A stretch of DNA of 32,583 bases. It comes from Planctomycetota bacterium. GTDB taxonomy: Bacteria; Planctomycetota; Phycisphaerae; UBA1845. Where the stretch lies: contig JAJRYY010000079.1 of assembly GCA_024275565.1 (NCBI GenBank), forward strand, positions 1 through 32,583. The letters are read 5' to 3'. Of this stretch, positions 25,461 to 32,582 are shown in pieces. The first letter of the stretch is position 1; each line of letters begins with the position of its first letter. The notes below the pieces were generated by a model. That model was not told where the DNA came from, did not search any database, and worked only from the letters and a program-made list of their open reading frames with translations. Both the position numbers and the translations under genes were made by a program.

Positions 25461-25533
25461 TGATGGCTATGGGACTTCAATACTGGTTCGCCCTGTTCAA
25501 TGCTCCGTTTCCGGTGCGATGTGGTGTGTGTCT

Positions 25534-26706
25534 ATGAGCGTTCGGTCCGCTTCTTCTACGTCCATTGATCCGGATACTGTGGCTGCTGAGCTGTGTGACG
25601 GGGTTCAGTTGAGCAGTCCAGATCTGGCGGCGATCTGGATTTCGCACCACCATCTTGGGCATCAGGAAGCGCTTCTTGCTTCTGTTCATGCTCGTCTGAA
25701 CCCGCGAAATCTTATCGGATGCTCTGCTCAATCCGTCATTGGTCCCGAGACTGAAATCGAGGATGGACCGGGTGCGTGTCTGTTCGCAGCATCGCTTCCG
25801 GGTGTGCGTGTTTTTCCGTTCCTGCTGGATCAGAACGATCTGGAGCGTCTTGAAGAACCGGCTGAGTTGCACGATCGCCTTGGGGCGACGCCCGATGACA
25901 TCCCGACATTTATCATTCTGCCTGACCCTTTTACGATTCAGTATCAGGCGTGTATCGGGTTGATTGACCAGGCATTCAACGGTTCTACGACGGTTGGCGG
26001 GATCGCAAGCGCCGCGCGTGAACCGGGCAAGAATCGTCTGTTTCTCGGGGATCAATCGTTCCGACAGGGGCTTGTCGGTGTCACGCTCACTGGCGACCTT
26101 CGCACGAGTACCATCGTCTCGCAGGGTTGCCGCCCTATCGGTCCTACATTTGTGATTACGAAGGCGAAGTCGAATGTTATTATTCAGCTTGGTGGGCGTA
26201 ATGCGTATGATGTTTTACACGACATGCACGACAAAGCCAGTGCATCTGATCAGGCGCGTATTCGTGGTGGTTTGCATATTGGAAGACTCATCAATGAGCA
26301 TCAAGACAATCCCGGACCTGGAGATTTTCTGATCCGAAATATTGCCGGGATTGTGGATAATGAGGGGTTGGCTGTCACGGACCATCTGCGTCCCGGGCAG
26401 ACGGTACAATTCCATGTTCGGGATGCAGACACGGCTGAGCACGAATTGCGGTCACTGCTGACCGCGCATGTCGAGCAATCGAATGCGCCGCCAGCCGGGG
26501 CGCTTCTGTTCAACTGTAACGGGCGCGGTAGCGGTCTTTTTGGTGAGCCGAACCACGATATACACCTGATTAACGAGCTACTCCCCGGTACGCCGACCGC
26601 TGGTTTTTTCGCGGGTGGTGAGATTGGTCCCGTCGGCGGGTCAACCTTCGTCCACGGTCTGACAAGCTCACTTATCCTCCTGGATTCGCTTCCTGCGGAC
26701 GATTGA
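25534..26706 (+). CDS. FIST domain protein (FIST_N plus FIST_C)
   Basis: 390 residues from ATG 25534 (ATG 25519 would add five). The N-terminal two thirds have the FIST_N pattern (LIGCSAQSVIGPETEIEDGP, GGIASAAREPGKNRLFLG). The end has FIST_C hallmarks: ALLFNCNGRGSGLFGEPNHD, then GFFAGGEIGPVGG and FVHGLTSSLILL. FIST domains are small-molecule sensing modules, usually found alone or fused to histidine kinases and cyclases, and proposed to bind amino acids or similar ligands. This one has no output domain and no membrane segment, so it is probably a soluble binding protein. It starts 73 bases after valS on the same strand and may be co-transcribed. Ligand unknown. Confidence 0.88.
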   Translation: MSVRSASSTSIDPDTVAAELCDGVQLSSPDLAAIWISHHHLGHQEALLASVHARLNPRNLIGCSAQSVIGPETEIEDGPGACLFAASLPGVRVFPFLLDQNDLERLEEPAELHDRLGATPDDIPTFIILPDPFTIQYQACIGLIDQAFNGSTTVGGIASAAREPGKNRLFLGDQSFRQGLVGVTLTGDLRTSTIVSQGCRPIGPTFVITKAKSNVIIQLGGRNAYDVLHDMHDKASASDQARIRGGLHIGRLINEHQDNPGPGDFLIRNIAGIVDNEGLAVTDHLRPGQTVQFHVRDADTAEHELRSLLTAHVEQSNAPPAGALLFNCNGRGSGLFGEPNHDIHLINELLPGTPTAGFFAGGEIGPVGGSTFVHGLTSSLILLDSLPADD

Positions 26707-26749
26707 TCTGGAATGCGCCCCTGAGAGGGTGAATGGTGTATTGAACTGC

Positions 26750-26774
26750 CACAGTCGGGGGCGGCTGTGCTACA
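26750..26774. repeat. Dispersed CAGCC/GGCTG hairpin
   Basis: CACAGTC-GGGGGC-GGCTGTG followed by CTACA; 7-bp stem with one G-T pair. It lies in the 131-base gap between the FIST gene and the DUF2064 gene, in the orientation of the copy at 16753. Confidence 0.65.
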
Positions 26775-26837
26775 TGCTTCCTCCGTTGATCGTGTATTCC
26801 CGCTTGACCCGACGCGCAGGATCGATACCTTGTCGTC

Positions 26838-27527
26838 GTGGCTGATACGACACTGATCATTTTTGCAAAGCATCCTACGCCGGGCGAGGTGAATACGCGC
26901 CTTTGTCCGCCGCTTACGCCGGACGAGGCTGCACGCGTGCATCGTGTCTGCCTGCAGGCGATTTGTGAACGGGCGTTTCGGAGCTGGTCTGTGAAACCCA
27001 TCATCGCATTTGCACCTGACAGTGCAACATCTGAGATGCGACAGATAACAGGTCCGTTCATCCCCCTCCGCCCTCAGGGCGATGGCGATCTTGGACAGCG
27101 TATTTTTCGGGCTGCGCAAGCGTGCTTTCAGGAGGGTGCGTCACGTGTCATTGTCCTCGGAGTGGACAGTCCCACGATGCCTGATGAGCGGATCGAACAG
27201 GCGGAATCTGCGTTGGACGATGCGGATGTCGTGCTGGGGCCTTGTGCTGATGGCGGATTCTATCTGCTCGGTTTGCGACGTGCGGAGGAGGATATGTTTT
27301 CCGGCGTGGACTGGGGTTCTGACAAGGTGTGTGATCAGACGACTGCTGGTGCTACGGCGGTCGGGTTATCTTGTTCAGTGATCGAACCATGGTATGACGT
27401 AGATCGGTTTGAAGATCTCGTACGGGCGGCTGACGATCTTCGGAAAGCAAATCGTCTCGATGCGTTTGTATTGCTCCGGACCATGGAATCGATCGTTGCA
27501 GATGCGAAAGGCCGAGCAGCCTCATGA
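26838..27527 (+). CDS. DUF2064 / TIGR04282 family nucleotidyl- or glycosyltransferase-like protein
   Basis: 229 residues starting with GTG (26838). GT-A-like fold with the family signatures FAKHPTPGEVNTRL (9-22), GVDSPTMP (108-115; acidic D110) and LGPCADGGFYLLGL (133-146). Members (rSAM/selenodomain-associated transferase 1, CofC-like) resemble nucleotide-sugar transferases, but substrates are mostly unknown. The frequent partners (radical SAM, TIGR04283) are absent here. The TGA overlaps the ATG of the cyclodeaminase-like gene by four bases, so the two are translationally coupled. Confidence 0.88.
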   Translation: MADTTLIIFAKHPTPGEVNTRLCPPLTPDEAARVHRVCLQAICERAFRSWSVKPIIAFAPDSATSEMRQITGPFIPLRPQGDGDLGQRIFRAAQACFQEGASRVIVLGVDSPTMPDERIEQAESALDDADVVLGPCADGGFYLLGLRRAEEDMFSGVDWGSDKVCDQTTAGATAVGLSCSVIEPWYDVDRFEDLVRAADDLRKANRLDAFVLLRTMESIVADAKGRAAS

Positions 27528-28159
27528 CTCTCTCTCGCGAAGAACTGGATCACGCGCTCGATGGTCTTGGTGGTTTTCTGGACGCTGTGGCTGAGCGGTC
27601 ACCCTCACCGGGTGGTGGTGCAGTTGCGGCTGCCTGCGGAGCGTTGGCCTCCGCGATGGGCCGCATGGTTGCTGCATATTCACCGGGGAAACATGGGGAA
27701 TCAGTCGCCATTGAAGAGGTGTCTCGACTTGCTGAACAACTCTCCCGTCTTGACCAGATGATGCGCGAACTGATTGCTGAGGATGCCGATGCGTATCCAG
27801 CCATGGTTGATGCTGGCAGGAAGGCGAAAGCGGATCCCTCATGTCAGGCTGAGTACGACGCTGCCACTGGTGTTGCGATCGCCGTACCGCTGGAACTCAT
27901 GGCGGTGGCTGTTGATATGCTTGGAGCATTGAGTCGATTGCGTCCGGTGGCGAATCGGTATCTGCTCAGCGATCTGGGTGTCGCAGCCATATTGGCAGAA
28001 GCGACGGTCCGCGCCAGTGTGTATATGGTGCGTGTCAACACTGCGTCGATCAAGGATGTTGCGTCACGTCAGAAGATCGATCAGCAGGTGGCGGTGTTTC
28101 GGACCAAATCGCAATCTTTGCTTGAGCTGATCGAGTCTGACTTGGCGCGTACACCATGA
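27524..28159 (+). CDS. Cyclodeaminase/cyclohydrolase (FTCD_C / FchA-like)
   Basis: 211 residues, all helical. The hallmark PSPGGGAVAAACGALASAMG lies at about 27-46. Later elements are EDADAYPAMVDAGRKAK and GVAIAVPLELM, with a C-terminal region rich in Ala that covers SDLGVAAILAEATVRAS. This is the cyclodeaminase domain of formiminotransferase-cyclodeaminase and of bacterial FchA (methenyl-THF cyclohydrolase), i.e. folate one-carbon metabolism in the cytoplasm. The exact reaction is not fixed by sequence; no glutamate formiminotransferase or fhs/folD gene is adjacent. ATGA overlap with the DUF2064 gene. Confidence 0.88.
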   Translation: MTLSREELDHALDGLGGFLDAVAERSPSPGGGAVAAACGALASAMGRMVAAYSPGKHGESVAIEEVSRLAEQLSRLDQMMRELIAEDADAYPAMVDAGRKAKADPSCQAEYDAATGVAIAVPLELMAVAVDMLGALSRLRPVANRYLLSDLGVAAILAEATVRASVYMVRVNTASIKDVASRQKIDQQVAVFRTKSQSLLELIESDLARTP

Positions 28160-28504: not shown

Positions 28505-28546
28505 GATGTGCGCATTGAGGCATAAGATGTGCGCATTCAGGCATAA
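28505..28546. repeat. 21-bp tandem duplication at the operon 3' end
   Basis: GATGTGCGCATTGAGGCATA at 28505 and GATGTGCGCATTCAGGCATA at 28526 are adjacent 21-base units with one mismatch. The second contains the stop codon of the SPFH/propeller gene (28537-28539, - strand). No terminator hairpin was seen in the gap 28478-28536. Confidence 0.8.
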
Positions 28547-30309
28547 GGAACCAGTGTAATGTCCTGAACAGAATGGCCTGTGGTCTGAGCGATGGGGATG
28601 ATGGCGTGCGGTTTTGCAGGGTCACCAATATCGAAGCAAAACAGGCGGTCGCGTGCTTCGTTGGTTGCCACAATGATATCGGCTGCGATCTCCGCCCGCC
28701 TGAGCGTCTGCCCCCCTGCTTCGTATCTACAGGTGAAGGTGTCATCGATCACGCGTGAGAAAATTGCGAGGGATGTATCTGTGTAGAAAAGTCGACGAAC
28801 CGGTCCGAAATCCAGGACGCAGACGGTTTCAGATGCGCGTTGCCGGCCAACATGTATCAGCACGGGATTCTCAACCTCACCCACCTGCCAGTGAATAATT
28901 TTGCCCTCTGCGTTTCCGGCATAGACGCCCTCACGACTCACACATAACGCAGTAATGTTGGCAGTACTGCCCTCGAACACCTCGCACTCAGCATCAGGAT
29001 CGTCTGATCGAAAACGATATACATTTTCGTCGACCGAAAAGTAGATGTAACCTGCTTCAAATAGAGCGCATCGAACGGAGCGTGCGGACTGGGTGAGTGT
29101 GGTGCGGATGGTCTGTCCGGAGTCTGGTTCGCCACGATTGAAACAGATCAGACCAAGTTCTGAATGCGTCGCGAATATGCGGTCTCCTGACAAAGCAACT
29201 GCATTCACGCCGCCCTGTACTGCACGGTCCGTTGGGCAGATATAGCTGATGCTCACACCGCTTCCGTCTGCCGCTACCTCGTACAAACCCGTCGCCGCCC
29301 CCACGAAAATACGATTCGCACCGTCCGCGTCGCGATACCATTGAACAGAGCGAGCTGGTCCGACATCTCCGGACAGGGGAAGCCGGTATTGTGGACGCTC
29401 GGGATCAGCTGGATTGTACCATAGAAGCTCAGCTCCAGAGGCGACGACGATCGATTCAGTGGTGCGTTTTGTGTTTGACTGCACAAACAGAGCAGTATAA
29501 AGCGCTCCTCGATCCGACTCATCAAACGTTTTCAAAAGGTCGGGCAGTTGTACCTGAGAGGATGAATCGGATGCGGTCTGAAGGCGATCGAGAAGATCCG
29601 TCAGATGGTCGGCATGTTGCAGTCGGGCTACCTTTGCAGCCTCCTTCAGTCGCTGATCGGTCTCGAATGATTCTTTTCGTTGAGCGGCTTCTGCACGCGT
29701 GCGGCGAACCTGGCGATATACGAGCGAGTCGATGGCAAGCGTAGATGGTCCGTCAAATTGCAGACCAGCAGCGAAGGATGCAGCCTTGAGAGAAAGTAGA
29801 AACTCATCGGCCAGGGGTCCGGTTTTCGCAGGGTCAATCAGTACTTCGACGCCTCGCCCTTCAGCCAGTTGCGCCAACGCACGGATCACATATGTCTTGA
29901 AATATGCGTGTAAATCGGTTTCGAACACCTGTCGACGACTTGCGAGGATTGCATTCGAGAAGCTTGAAAGATCGCCTTTTTCAGGGATGATTGAAACTCG
30001 AAAAGTTGCTTCTGCGAGGCAACGGTATTGATCGACTGAATGAACAGGGATATCGCTGAAAGTCAGCGTGATGGGCGCAACCCGTACCATAAGAACGCTT
30101 TCAACCTCATCTGCCACGATCGCAGCCCCTGCAGCGATGGAGATGCGATCGCCCTGCCTCCGGGTGACCAATGCAGCAAGGGTGGCTGGCAGATCGTAAG
30201 ATCTTGTCAGCATCCCGAAAAGTTCATCGGGATCGACAACCATTGCAACTGCCTCGGGCAGATCAAAAAAGGCCTTGTGTGTGAGTTTATCATTGTTGAT
30301 TGGACTCAT
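28537..30309 (-). CDS. SPFH (band 7)-like domain joined to a beta-propeller; last gene of the ESCRT-III-like operon
   Basis: 590 residues; GGTGAG lies upstream of the ATG. Residues about 20-195 look SPFH/prohibitin-like: a beta-rich start (VESVLMVRVAPITLTFSDIP, 69-88), a strand with CLAEATFRVSII (97-108), helices with FETDLHAYFKTYVIRALAQL (129-148), then GVEVLID (153-159) and AGLQFDGPSTLAIDSLVYRQ (181-200). A charged helix follows at 198-245. Residues about 265-590 hold repeated beta-strand blades (GLYEVAADGSGVSISYICPT, then ITALCVSREGVYAGNAEGKI), a WD40/PQQ-type propeller. No signal peptide or TM is seen. The gene is 54 bases after the Vps4-like gene. SPFH proteins scaffold membrane microdomains and neighbour PspA-family genes elsewhere, so it may be an adaptor. 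The SPFH call rests on pattern only; the propeller is firmer. Confidence 0.75.
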   Translation of the reverse strand: MSPINNDKLTHKAFFDLPEAVAMVVDPDELFGMLTRSYDLPATLAALVTRRQGDRISIAAGAAIVADEVESVLMVRVAPITLTFSDIPVHSVDQYRCLAEATFRVSIIPEKGDLSSFSNAILASRRQVFETDLHAYFKTYVIRALAQLAEGRGVEVLIDPAKTGPLADEFLLSLKAASFAAGLQFDGPSTLAIDSLVYRQVRRTRAEAAQRKESFETDQRLKEAAKVARLQHADHLTDLLDRLQTASDSSSQVQLPDLLKTFDESDRGALYTALFVQSNTKRTTESIVVASGAELLWYNPADPERPQYRLPLSGDVGPARSVQWYRDADGANRIFVGAATGLYEVAADGSGVSISYICPTDRAVQGGVNAVALSGDRIFATHSELGLICFNRGEPDSGQTIRTTLTQSARSVRCALFEAGYIYFSVDENVYRFRSDDPDAECEVFEGSTANITALCVSREGVYAGNAEGKIIHWQVGEVENPVLIHVGRQRASETVCVLDFGPVRRLFYTDTSLAIFSRVIDDTFTCRYEAGGQTLRRAEIAADIIVATNEARDRLFCFDIGDPAKPHAIIPIAQTTGHSVQDITLVPYA

Positions 30310-30363
30310 GTTCTCTCACCCCCGCGAATCGATATTTGTTTGGTCATTATTCGACTCCGGCTG

Positions 30364-31491
30364 TCATCCAGCAACACCGGTTTCCGCGAAGCGTTCGTAT
30401 CGAACCAGGGATGAGGCATCGACCGATGGCGGCGCTGACTCGATGACAGACAGGACATCGTTCATGTTGATCGGTCGCGGATCATGACCTGCGATGGCGT
30501 CTGTGAATGGTATGGCGGCTGCACGTTGCGCAATGTTTTTGATGTCTGCTCCCGTGTATCCGTCCATCTGATCGCAAAGTGCACTGAAATCGACATCCTC
30601 GTCCAGTGGTTTATTGTCAAAATATATTTCGAGCAGGCGAAATCTTGCGGGAGCATCCGGTAAACCGACGTAAATTTTTGTATCCAGACGCCCAGGCCGA
30701 AGCATCGCGTCGTCGAGCATCCATGGTTTGTTGGTCGCACCCACGAAGAGAATCGCCCGGTCGGATTTCCGATCGAAACCTTCAAGCTCCTGGAGAATCT
30801 GCGGAACCACGCGCTGCATCACCGTGGAACCACCACTTTTACGCTTGGGAACGAGCGCTTCGCATTCGTCTATAAAAATAATGGCGCTTTCCTGTTGCCT
30901 CGCTGCGTCGAACAGTTTTTGTATATTCTGCTCCGCCTCGCCGACCCATTTACTGAGGATCTGGGCTGGACTGATAAGGAAAAAAGTCGCCTTCAGTTCA
31001 TGGGCTATTGCTTTCGCCATCATGGTTTTACCGGTCCCGGGCGGACCATACAGAAGTACACCGCCGCCGATTGAGATACCATAGCGTTTCGCCAGTTCAG
31101 GATGTGAAAGCGGGTAAATCATCTTCAGGCGAATGTCGGATTTTACATCTTCCAACCCTGCAATATCGTCGAACCCAATATCAGGTATTTTTGAAACAAT
31201 CCATTCGTCAGCGTTTGACCCGCCATCACCGCTCTCATCTTCCCGGACACCATGTCTGCCTGCACCCGGGTTTTCCCGCAAGCGATCGCAATCCCTGGCG
31301 AGATCGATCAGCTCGGTCGCGACTTCTTCCCGCTGACGTCGCATATCTTCAGTTTCCGCCGACTCAGCCAGTTCGATCATGCATTCGCCAGCTTCGATCA
31401 GATAGCTTCGCGCAGCAGAAAATTCACCCTTTTTGTATGCGGATACACCCTTGTCTTTCAGTCGCTCGAATGTAGCGTAAGATACGGGCAT
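30364..31491 (-). CDS. MIT-domain AAA ATPase, Vps4-like
   Basis: 375 residues from ATG 31491; the longer frame to 31614 overlaps the upstream gene and adds unrelated sequence. Residues 5-75 form three predicted helices of MIT type (GVSAYKKGEFSAARSYLIEA at 15-34). A linker follows, then a group-I AAA core: FDDIAGLEDVKSDI, Walker A GPPGTGKT (149-156), pore loop SKWVGEAEQNIQKLF (180-194), Walker B IIFIDE (204-209), sensor 1 GATN (251-254), Arg fingers R265/R268 (MLRPGRLD), and DGYTGADI (310-317). The order and the pore-loop sequence match Vps4/katanin/CdvC rather than FtsH. Vps4 hexamers pull on ESCRT-III subunits after the MIT domain binds their C-terminal motifs. It lies 16 bases after the ESCRT-III-like gene. 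High confidence for MIT+AAA; the membrane-remodelling role is inferred. Confidence 0.92.
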   Translation of the reverse strand: MPVSYATFERLKDKGVSAYKKGEFSAARSYLIEAGECMIELAESAETEDMRRQREEVATELIDLARDCDRLRENPGAGRHGVREDESGDGGSNADEWIVSKIPDIGFDDIAGLEDVKSDIRLKMIYPLSHPELAKRYGISIGGGVLLYGPPGTGKTMMAKAIAHELKATFFLISPAQILSKWVGEAEQNIQKLFDAARQQESAIIFIDECEALVPKRKSGGSTVMQRVVPQILQELEGFDRKSDRAILFVGATNKPWMLDDAMLRPGRLDTKIYVGLPDAPARFRLLEIYFDNKPLDEDVDFSALCDQMDGYTGADIKNIAQRAAAIPFTDAIAGHDPRPINMNDVLSVIESAPPSVDASSLVRYERFAETGVAG

Positions 31492-31507
31492 TTTAATTAG
31501 CTTTCGA

Positions 31508-32119
31508 CTATTCCTGTTTTTTCTCAGCTTCGCCTTTAAGTGATGCAAGCTCGGCGCGAAGACCTGAGAGACGGCCCATTTCCTGCTGATGCACAGCCGC
31601 ATCCTCCGCTTCAATCATTCGATCAATATCAGCATCTGTGATGGCTTCATTTGCAGAACTCATTTCGATGTCCTGTTCGGCGATGTCTTCAACCGATTCC
31701 AGAAAAAGCTCCATTCGCTCCTCCATCGTCTGCGACTGCGCCATCGCTTTTTCCCATTCCCCTTGCGTTTTCACCAGATCGGTTTCACCGAACAGCCGCC
31801 CGATTTCAGTGGCCATCAAGCCCATGGAGCTTGCAAAATCGGCTGACGCTTCCGCCTGACGCTTGATAAGCAACGCATTCTTAACGGTCAGCAATTGCCT
31901 TTCGAGCATCTTGCGAATGGTGGCGGTTTTTTTCAACGAATTGCGAATAAACTGGTACTGCTGGTTGTCGCCGATGCGTTTGGCATGCTGGGCATTTTTG
32001 ATGAACTCATCCGTAAATTTACCCTGCTCTTTAATGGATTTTTCTATACGACGAATCCCCTGACGGATCTTTATATCGCGTTCGATCCGTCGCTCTTCGC
32101 TCGACTTAAAAAGTCCCAT
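31508..32119 (-). CDS. ESCRT-III (Snf7/CHMP)-like protein
   Basis: 203 residues from ATG 32119 (MGLFK, the usual short amphipathic start of PspA/ESCRT-III proteins); the frame to 32167 adds 16 unrelated residues. All helical: basic alpha1 about 8-45 (RRIEKSIKEQGKFTDEFIKN), alpha2 about 50-95 (SLKKTATIRKMLERQLLTVK), a short alpha3 with MGLMATEIGRLF (99-110), then acidic helices 115-175, and a last helix with LRAELASLK (187-195). Basic N-terminal and acidic C-terminal halves are the ESCRT-III signature. Residues 90-150 look more like CHMP2/CHMP1 than like PspA, as judged by eye. No TM. ESCRT-III polymers bind and cut or seal membranes. It lies between pspC (88-base gap) and the MIT-AAA gene. 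PspA/Vipp1 belongs to the same superfamily and is the main alternative label. Confidence 0.85.
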   Translation of the reverse strand: MGLFKSSEERRIERDIKIRQGIRRIEKSIKEQGKFTDEFIKNAQHAKRIGDNQQYQFIRNSLKKTATIRKMLERQLLTVKNALLIKRQAEASADFASSMGLMATEIGRLFGETDLVKTQGEWEKAMAQSQTMEERMELFLESVEDIAEQDIEMSSANEAITDADIDRMIEAEDAAVHQQEMGRLSGLRAELASLKGEAEKKQE

Positions 32120-32207
32120 AGCGCATCGTTTCCATCGGTACCGTCTTCCAACAATTCTGTGTCCCAAGATCCGTCACAACAACCAGTGTCACGCCCCGGT
32201 CGCGCAA

Positions 32208-32414
32208 TCAATAATGCTCTTCCTGCGGAACAAGTGCCCACAGGATTAAATAGATAAGCACACCCGAAAATGCGGTGCAAATGCTCAACAGAACGTACAG
32301 AACCCGCACAACCGTCGCATTAACTTCCAGATAGCGGGCCAACCCCGAGCAGACCCCGCCGATTTGCCGGTTGTGTACACTTCTGGTCAGTGTTTTCTTC
32401 TGTGTCGAATACAT
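32208..32414 (-). CDS. pspC: PspC-domain membrane protein
   Basis: 68 residues with the PspC domain: LTRSVHNRQIGGVCSGLARY, then LEVNATVVRVLYVLLSICTA and a second half ending LIYLILWALVPQEE. The domain has an amphipathic start and one long or two short hydrophobic segments in the inner membrane. PspC is a sensor/partner in the phage-shock response, acting with PspA, which is an ESCRT-III relative. The start at 32414 was chosen because GAGGAG (32429-32424) is nine bases upstream; ATG 32420, immediately after the TAA of the upstream gene, would be only three bases from it. Either way it is translationally coupled to the upstream gene. The next gene is ESCRT-III-like. Confidence 0.9.
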   Translation of the reverse strand: MYSTQKKTLTRSVHNRQIGGVCSGLARYLEVNATVVRVLYVLLSICTAFSGVLIYLILWALVPQEEHY

Positions 32415-32420
32415 ATTCAT

Positions 32421-32582
32421 TTACTCCTCAGCGGCTGCCCGTTGTTGCTCTCGGACACGCCTGTCCGCTTCGTCAAATGCTTCACTGGTGTCTTTGATGG
32501 CGCCAGAGTCCAGTTTTTCCCATATATTCAGCACTTCGCGCCCTGCCTGCGAAACGGGGCCAGCCTGATCGTCGTCTCCCAT
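32421..32582 (-). CDS. C-terminal end (or whole small gene) of an unidentified protein
   Basis: An open frame that reaches the right window edge; an ATG at 32582 could be the start (53 residues) or be internal to a larger gene. The visible part is acidic and helical (MGDDDQAGPVSQ, then REVLNIWEKLDSGAIKDT and EADRRVREQQRAAAEE). No domain recognised and no TM. Its TAA (32423-32421) abuts the pspC ATG, and its last codons supply the pspC ribosome-binding site, so it belongs to the same operon. Confidence 0.55.
   Translation of the reverse strand: MGDDDQAGPVSQAGREVLNIWEKLDSGAIKDTSEAFDEADRRVREQQRAAAEE

Follow-up and report, generated by a model that had tools for sequence, protein, structure and literature searches.

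Can a bacterium carry an ESCRT-III polymer (endosomal sorting complexes required for transport III) together with an ATPase able to take it apart? The joint mechanism of ESCRT-III and Vps4 is established for archaea and eukaryotes, and the pairing of ESCRT-III with a disassembly-type ATPase has so far been described from those two groups. The question is raised here by a gene cluster at one end of a 32,583-nucleotide stretch of DNA, referred to as the window, from a Planctomycetota bacterium (Phycisphaerae, UBA1845; contig JAJRYY010000079.1 of assembly GCA_024275565.1); the window is one whole contig of a 4.40-Mb assembly of 236 contigs that is 94.95% complete. We read the cluster, with a probability of about 0.78, as a bacterial ESCRT-III/MIT-AAA membrane-remodelling machine driven by ATP. 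The parts observed are an ESCRT-III signature and predicted fold, an adjoining ATPase with intact motifs and an MIT-like N-terminus, a PspC protein and an SPFH-propeller protein, kept in relatives. The features are as follows.

31508..32119, minus strand: predicted ESCRT-III (Snf7/CHMP-type) protein, 203 amino acids (AA), beginning MGLFKS (AlphaFold2 model, Foldseek, Pfam Snf7 in the family, profile against the PDB)
30364..31491, minus strand: single AAA-module ATPase, 375 AA from its ATG, with an MIT-like N-terminus and a C-terminal Vps4_C (Pfam, invariant motifs)
31261..31485, minus strand: MIT-like N-terminal domain of the ATPase (family profile, best PDB match 2mpk)
31024..31047, minus strand: Walker A motif GPPGTGKT of the ATPase (sequence)
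28537..30309, minus strand: predicted SPFH-like/beta-propeller protein, 590 AA (AlphaFold2 model, Foldseek, Band_7 in the family)
32208..32420, minus strand: PspC-domain membrane protein, 70 AA (Pfam PspC, E 1.1e-22)
32421..32582, minus strand: C-terminal 53 AA of a ~200-AA basic-then-acidic coiled-coil protein, cut by the contig end (family match, E 7.4e-16)

A first-pass annotation of this DNA had described five same-strand frames (an acidic helical protein, PspC, the 203-AA protein, the ATPase and the SPFH-like/propeller protein) with gaps of 0 to 88 bases, and the frames do lie in that order; all are on the minus strand, separated by 0, 88, 16 and 54 bases (start sites picked from the sequence).

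The 203-AA protein

From its sequence family and predicted fold, we file the 203-AA protein as a putative ESCRT-III of the Snf7/CHMP side, not of the PspA/Vipp1 side. The AlphaFold2 model consists of four helices (residues 7-49, 52-112, 115-154 and 162-202; pLDDT 81.1, pTM 0.46) and shows the long alpha1-alpha2 hairpin, followed by more helices towards the C-terminus, that marks the ESCRT-III fold. When the model was compared with 350,542 PDB chains by Foldseek, the 12 best matches all belonged to the ESCRT-III superfamily, with CHMP2A-CHMP3 on top (probability 1.00, TM-score 0.73 by target) and with Loki CHMP4-7, CHMP1B/IST1, CHMP1B, Asgard ESCRT-IIIB, Vipp1 and CdvB among the others. Sequence significance for the family came from the use of a cross-class alignment of 34 rows (27 of the 38 other-class members and seven class members, the window's included); narrower searches gave none. 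Pfam Snf7 was matched by 27 of these 34 members at E <=10 (best E 2.7e-6), the window's own protein not being one of them, and the cross-class profile found eight PDB matches at E <=10, seven of them ESCRT-III (CHMP3 at E 0.0011, Snf7 at 0.23, CHMP2A at 0.25) and the last FtsA (0.98). The annotation had called the protein Snf7/CHMP-like, and both the profile check and the structure prediction point the same way.

Two further properties of the family were noted. Its mean net charge is +10.1 over residues 1-112 and -13.3 thereafter (n=81), in line with the basic core and acidic end of ESCRT-III proteins; for E. coli PspA the values are -4 and then -2. A MIM1-like C-terminal pattern, L..E[LI]..[LVI][KR], is present in 80 of the 81 class members (0.53 in shuffled tails). 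A Pfam Snf7 search of the window's own genome was empty, which says little, as the same search passes the cut-off in none of 14 control genomes.

The adjoining ATPase

The ATPase matched Pfam AAA (E 9.5e-40), AAA_lid_3 (E 3.5e-7) and Vps4_C (22.5 bits against a cut-off of 21.3), and its Walker A, Walker B and arginine-finger residues were invariant in all 16 aligned members. Since Cdc48 carries a C-terminal end similar to Vps4_C, the last of these matches discriminates little. The family profile of the N-terminus had as its best PDB match 2mpk at E 4.2e-4, followed by TPR proteins from E 0.0012 and Calpain-7 at 0.029. A figure legend of PMC8851075 names 2mpk as an MIT domain, and we consider an MIT identity for this N-terminus likely from the profile matches.

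Conservation of the cluster

The 203-AA protein was matched at E <=0.01 in 51 of 60 lineage genomes, the window's own included. With the own genome and genome G052 left out, it is present in 49 of 59 relatives at 68-82% identity, a conservation far above chance; G052 was excluded because its match (E 0.007, 23% identity) is probably a chance one. A pattern scan of genome contigs, with patterns from the own-order alignment, found 95 relatives, and 80 class loci were kept. Three family alignments used 68 of 79, 65 of 71 and all 43 class proteins, with the window added to the first and third; an alignment of N-termini took 15 of 16 sequences, and a further one 26 hand-chosen rows. The 80 loci are titled as planctomycetes, mostly Phycisphaerae, Phycisphaerales or Planctomycetota, with the exception of one "bacterium" and one Alphaproteobacteria; the latter (JANQQE010000024.1) bears the full planctomycete cluster, and its title is probably wrong. 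Members sit on the long chromosomes CP070718.1 and CP030884.1, which argues against stray archaeal contigs.

Counting same-strand matches only, the gene set named by the annotation was found again around the class loci: the ATPase in 39 and the SPFH-propeller protein in 36 of the 50 loci with 7 kb downstream, and PspC in 34 of the 63 loci with at least 5.5 kb upstream. The same upstream regions hold three further genes, for a kinase, a ~480-AA protein and a full ~200-AA protein, each in 59 of 63 loci. The cluster of the relatives extends upstream beyond what the window contains, and of the self-contained five-gene system that had been proposed, the listed frames stand while its extent proved incomplete. 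At one locus (L098) the upstream set lies on the opposite side of the 203-AA gene.

Across the phylum the distribution is patchy. In a draw of 392 genomes, 56 carry the family, counting the own one (among the 217 good ones, 15 do); the other 55 carriers are all outside the class, and no same-class genome of the draw carries the family. Of 20 other-class loci, 18 have an AAA gene (E <1e-40) within ~6 kb. The same 20 loci include 16 with the 480-AA family (in many cases just its first part), nine with the SPFH-propeller protein and six with the 200-AA family, which is doubled at four of the six. Two types of ATPase occur at these loci, the window's type in 10 of 20 and a second type, upstream of the 203-AA gene, in 16 of 20. 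For the second type, the profile of the N-terminus matched best on the MIT domains of VPS4B/SKD1 (E 4.8e-4). On one complete chromosome titled Planctomycetia H1_PLA3 (CP054190.1) the 203-AA gene stands by itself, with no same-strand cluster gene within 10 kb. A link of the other-class genomes to anammox bacteria was dropped because the G+C content of the 20 loci, 56-75%, does not suit anammox genomes.

The other proteins of the cluster

The frame at the contig end had been described as an acidic helical protein. The frame is there, but it holds only the end of a longer protein: it matches positions 154-201 in a family 202 positions long that is complete (1-201) in three other genomes searched alongside, and this, together with the contig end, makes the "acidic protein" a truncated C-terminal quarter. 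An hhalign comparison relates this ~200-AA family to the C-terminal part of the ~480-AA protein (96.5%, 9.4e-10), with ten shuffled versions and a reversed one staying at chance level. On sequence grounds both families are only candidates for further ESCRT-III-like subunits; a joint profile of the two, tried for this purpose, reached CHMP2A at only E 3.2, behind an unrelated match at 0.032. A winged-helix domain may lie in the middle of the ~480-AA protein, where weak helix-turn-helix matches are scattered and the sequence reads that way. A fusion was noted in one other-class lineage (L174, 12587-14098), where a segment that looks by reading like a MerR-type helix-turn-helix is joined to the first part of the 480-AA family. 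The kinase owes its name to sequence motifs and to the kinase models that it matched in a scan with the defence-system tool PADLOC.

The PspC domain passes its Pfam cut-off easily (80 bits against 25), as annotated. PspA works with PspC, as the annotation noted, but this is probably not the case here, as there is no PspA_IM30 match in the own assembly; none was found in six other same-family genomes either, and among 34 carriers of the 203-AA family 12 had a match, 10 of them over the cut-off.

The last protein of the cluster is an SPFH plus beta-propeller protein by model and family matches, in agreement with the annotation. Its AlphaFold2 model (pLDDT 92.3) has a strand-rich SPFH-like part at about residues 20-194, a long helix at 196-249 and a beta-propeller at 284-588. 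Propellers dominate the 50 Foldseek matches listed (best E 9.7e-12), among which there is no SPFH chain; 16 of the 44 family members have a Band_7 match (best E 2.3e-6), and the window's member reaches E 0.17, below the cut-off.

The remaining cluster genes were not found elsewhere in the own assembly, where the search for the 480-AA family was empty and had no positive control. Next to the cluster, three plus-strand genes at 25519-28159 of the window converge on it, with no link to it seen; we take them to encode a FIST-domain protein, a DUF2064-type transferase and a cyclodeaminase-like protein.

Evidence that weighs against the reading

Several results count against an ESCRT-III/MIT-AAA machine. 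By itself the window's 203-AA protein matches no Pfam, NCBIfam or PDB entry, and the profile of 20 close (own-order) relatives matches nothing in the PDB, so that support for ESCRT-III comes from the wider family and the model; among 20 own-order relatives scanned singly, Snf7 was seen in nine, with a best E of 0.034. Ten members of the family were also scanned singly, the one with the best Snf7 E (2.7e-6) not being among them: none reached the Pfam cut-off of 27.3 bits (best 25.8), and three had no Snf7 match at E <=0.05. The best Foldseek E of the model is 8.5e-3, with none at or below 0.001, and there is the pTM of 0.46. The MIM1-like pattern, in a looser form, occurs in one of 39 members in other classes, appears elsewhere in the chain in 76 of the 81 class members, and has E where we take the consensus to have R. 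The two upstream helical families, tried as ESCRT-III paralogues, scored against the 203-AA family within the range of shuffles and reversals. The gap between the ESCRT-III and ATPase genes has a class median of 688 bases (n=53), often with unrelated genes between, so co-transcription is not general. The gap at locus L032 holds another frame, presumably HEPN-like, and that at L041 a gene pair, presumably DUF433-like and PIN-like; both are unrelated.

The ATPase adds to this list. No Pfam MIT match was among the families listed for six ATPases, the window's included. In NCBIfam the window's ATPase scored 233.4 bits with CdvC (cut-off 650), 231.7 with CDC48 and 227.2 with PAN, and for seven other ATPases of both types CDC48 or PAN came first and CdvC never. 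BLAST against four references put Cdc48 closest to the window type in 20 of 20 cases; for the second type, yeast Vps4 came closest in 15 of 16. A tree with four references only placed the window type as its own clade on the Cdc48/FtsH side, not with Vps4, and joined the second type to yeast Vps4 (support 95/77, flagged for long branches); the second type fell below the Vps4_C cut-off in all three members scanned. Judged by these comparisons the core of the window's ATPase is no nearer Vps4/CdvC than Cdc48, and we do not file it as Vps4. The annotation's Vps4-like ATPase keeps its MIT-like N-terminus and Vps4_C but is not supported as a Vps4 orthologue.

Alternative explanations

These points leave room for other explanations. 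The 203-AA protein might be a divergent PspA/Vipp1-type protein in a variant phage-shock operon with PspC, the ATPase being unrelated and Cdc48-like. PspC is indeed the companion of PspA, and the fold list has Vipp1/PspA chains too, one at rank 11 and more from rank 19 downwards; an SPFH protein also accompanies some PspA loci, according to part of PMC10936438. We think this improbable, since the fold ranks favour CHMP and Asgard ESCRT-III, and the cross-class profile that reaches CHMP3, Snf7 and CHMP2A matched no PspA or Vipp1 chain in the PDB at E <=10. Moreover, PspA_IM30 is absent from all 25 Pfam families listed for own-order members and from the first 25 of 67 for cross-class members, and on a local family model frames from E. 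coli and planctomycete PspA loci stay at or below 2.5 bits, while a segment of CHMP3 scores 13.6 bits, itself not significant. About equally improbable is a protein-unfolding or quality-control complex, in which a Cdc48/PAN-like unfoldase with a TPR-like adaptor domain would serve a membrane-bound cage of coiled-coil and SPFH proteins, for which FtsH with HflK/C is the comparison. The tie of the AAA core with the Cdc48 and PAN models, its closeness to Cdc48 by BLAST, the TPR proteins among the N-terminal matches and the presence of SPFH all suit it, but it leaves the ESCRT-III fold and the Snf7 signature unexplained, and no protease gene was noticed in loci read by eye, no search aimed at proteases having been made. 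An anti-phage defence cluster is very unlikely: PADLOC models do pick up the ATPase (IetA, 116 bits at best) and the kinase (PD-T4-6, 185 bits at best), but both matches seem generic for an AAA protein and a kinase, none of the other five proteins scanned has a match at E <=0.001, and the cluster is a conserved lineage locus at high identity.

It is possible, though doubtful, that the cluster is the scission machine of planctomycete division without FtsZ, a bacterial counterpart of archaeal Cdv. Neither the 60 lineage genomes, the own assembly included, nor the 392 phylum genomes have an FtsZ over the cut-off (one partial match in the former, 10 weak ones in the latter), against 13 of 14 control genomes that do, and the core 203-AA protein is strongly conserved; a section of PMC7615534 describes how ESCRT-III and a Vps4-like ATPase divide Sulfolobus, which is without FtsZ. 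The partial match (G016:C475:4101-4706, E 1.3e-63, below the cut-off) is an FtsZ-like frame in a 63%-complete relative of an otherwise FtsZ-less family and possibly lies on a stray contig. Against division, no division gene was noticed in the loci by eye, and the family occurs in only 56 of the 392 phylum genomes (15 of the 217 good ones); as 336 have neither canonical FtsZ nor the 203-AA family, it is not a general FtsZ replacement, though it may have such a role in the lineages that carry it. A test for complementarity between FtsZ and the cluster gave no such pattern, because FtsZ over the cut-off is missing throughout the phylum sample. The loss of ftsZ in Phycisphaerae was, in addition, already known (PMC12283558).

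Proposed mechanism and relation to known systems

For the ESCRT-III/MIT-AAA machine that we favour, the following working scheme can be drawn, its motor steps by analogy with ESCRT-III/Vps4. Basic in its core and acidic in its tail, the ESCRT-III protein would polymerise on the cytoplasmic membrane, where PspC and the SPFH protein may act as anchors or a platform. Through its MIT-like domain the ATPase would bind the tails of ESCRT-III, and its ring would draw subunits through the pore; the filament would change shape as a result and deform, repair or cut the membrane. The kinase may regulate or co-assemble, as may the other two coiled-coil proteins. A physiological role in envelope maintenance or membrane scission, in cells where PspA and canonical FtsZ were not found, is most likely. 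We slightly favour envelope maintenance over division because PspC and SPFH accompany PspA and because of the lack of any division gene noticed by eye. More speculatively, the machine may have three ESCRT-III-type subunits, one of them winged-helix-fused, with one or two MIT-AAA motors and an SPFH-propeller platform, for scission and possibly cytokinesis without FtsZ or PspA, and may predate the archaeal/bacterial split or stem from an early archaeal transfer. CHMP7 has such an architecture, an ESCRT-III-type part fused to a winged-helix-like domain.

Like the archaeal Cdv/ESCRT system (CdvB, CdvC/Vps4), the cluster has an ESCRT-III gene beside an AAA ATPase with an MIT-like N-terminus, and the profile and fold of the 203-AA protein reach CHMP3, CHMP2A, Snf7, Asgard ESCRT-III and CdvB. 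It differs in being bacterial, in an ATPase that reaches 233 of the 650 bits of the CdvC equivalog cut-off, and in adding PspC, an SPFH-propeller protein and a kinase. With the bacterial PspA/Vipp1 and Psp operon it shares the ESCRT-III superfamily and PspC, but it has an ATPase with an MIT-like N-terminus and no PspA_IM30 signature among the families listed. The archaeal Meth_adaptin ESCRT loci, as described in part of PMC10936438, likewise have an SPFH protein in the ESCRT neighbourhood, whereas that of the present cluster is fused to a beta-propeller; the same survey states in one passage that ESCRT is confined to archaea and eukaryotes. Sections of PMC11237479 report Vps4-like AAA genes transferred to bacteria with snf7 replaced by a TPR/six-transmembrane protein, as well as PspA/Snf7 homologues with a transmembrane segment beside AAA in longer operons, which differ from the present cluster in carrying ABC transporter and OmpA-domain genes. 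The words "planctomycet" and "SPFH" do not occur in the main text of that paper, its supplements lying outside this scope. Among the matches listed for open-access titles and abstracts there was no description of the cluster; preprints, subscription papers and supplements were outside that scope, and prior notice is possible.

A Snf7-type ESCRT-III beside an MIT-like AAA motor in several planctomycete classes would bear on the origin of the ESCRT motor, with a pairing otherwise described from archaea and eukaryotes found here in bacteria. ATP-driven remodelling by ESCRT-III could be tested in such a bacterial system, and in a phylum whose cells divide without FtsZ the cluster is a candidate for membrane remodelling or scission.

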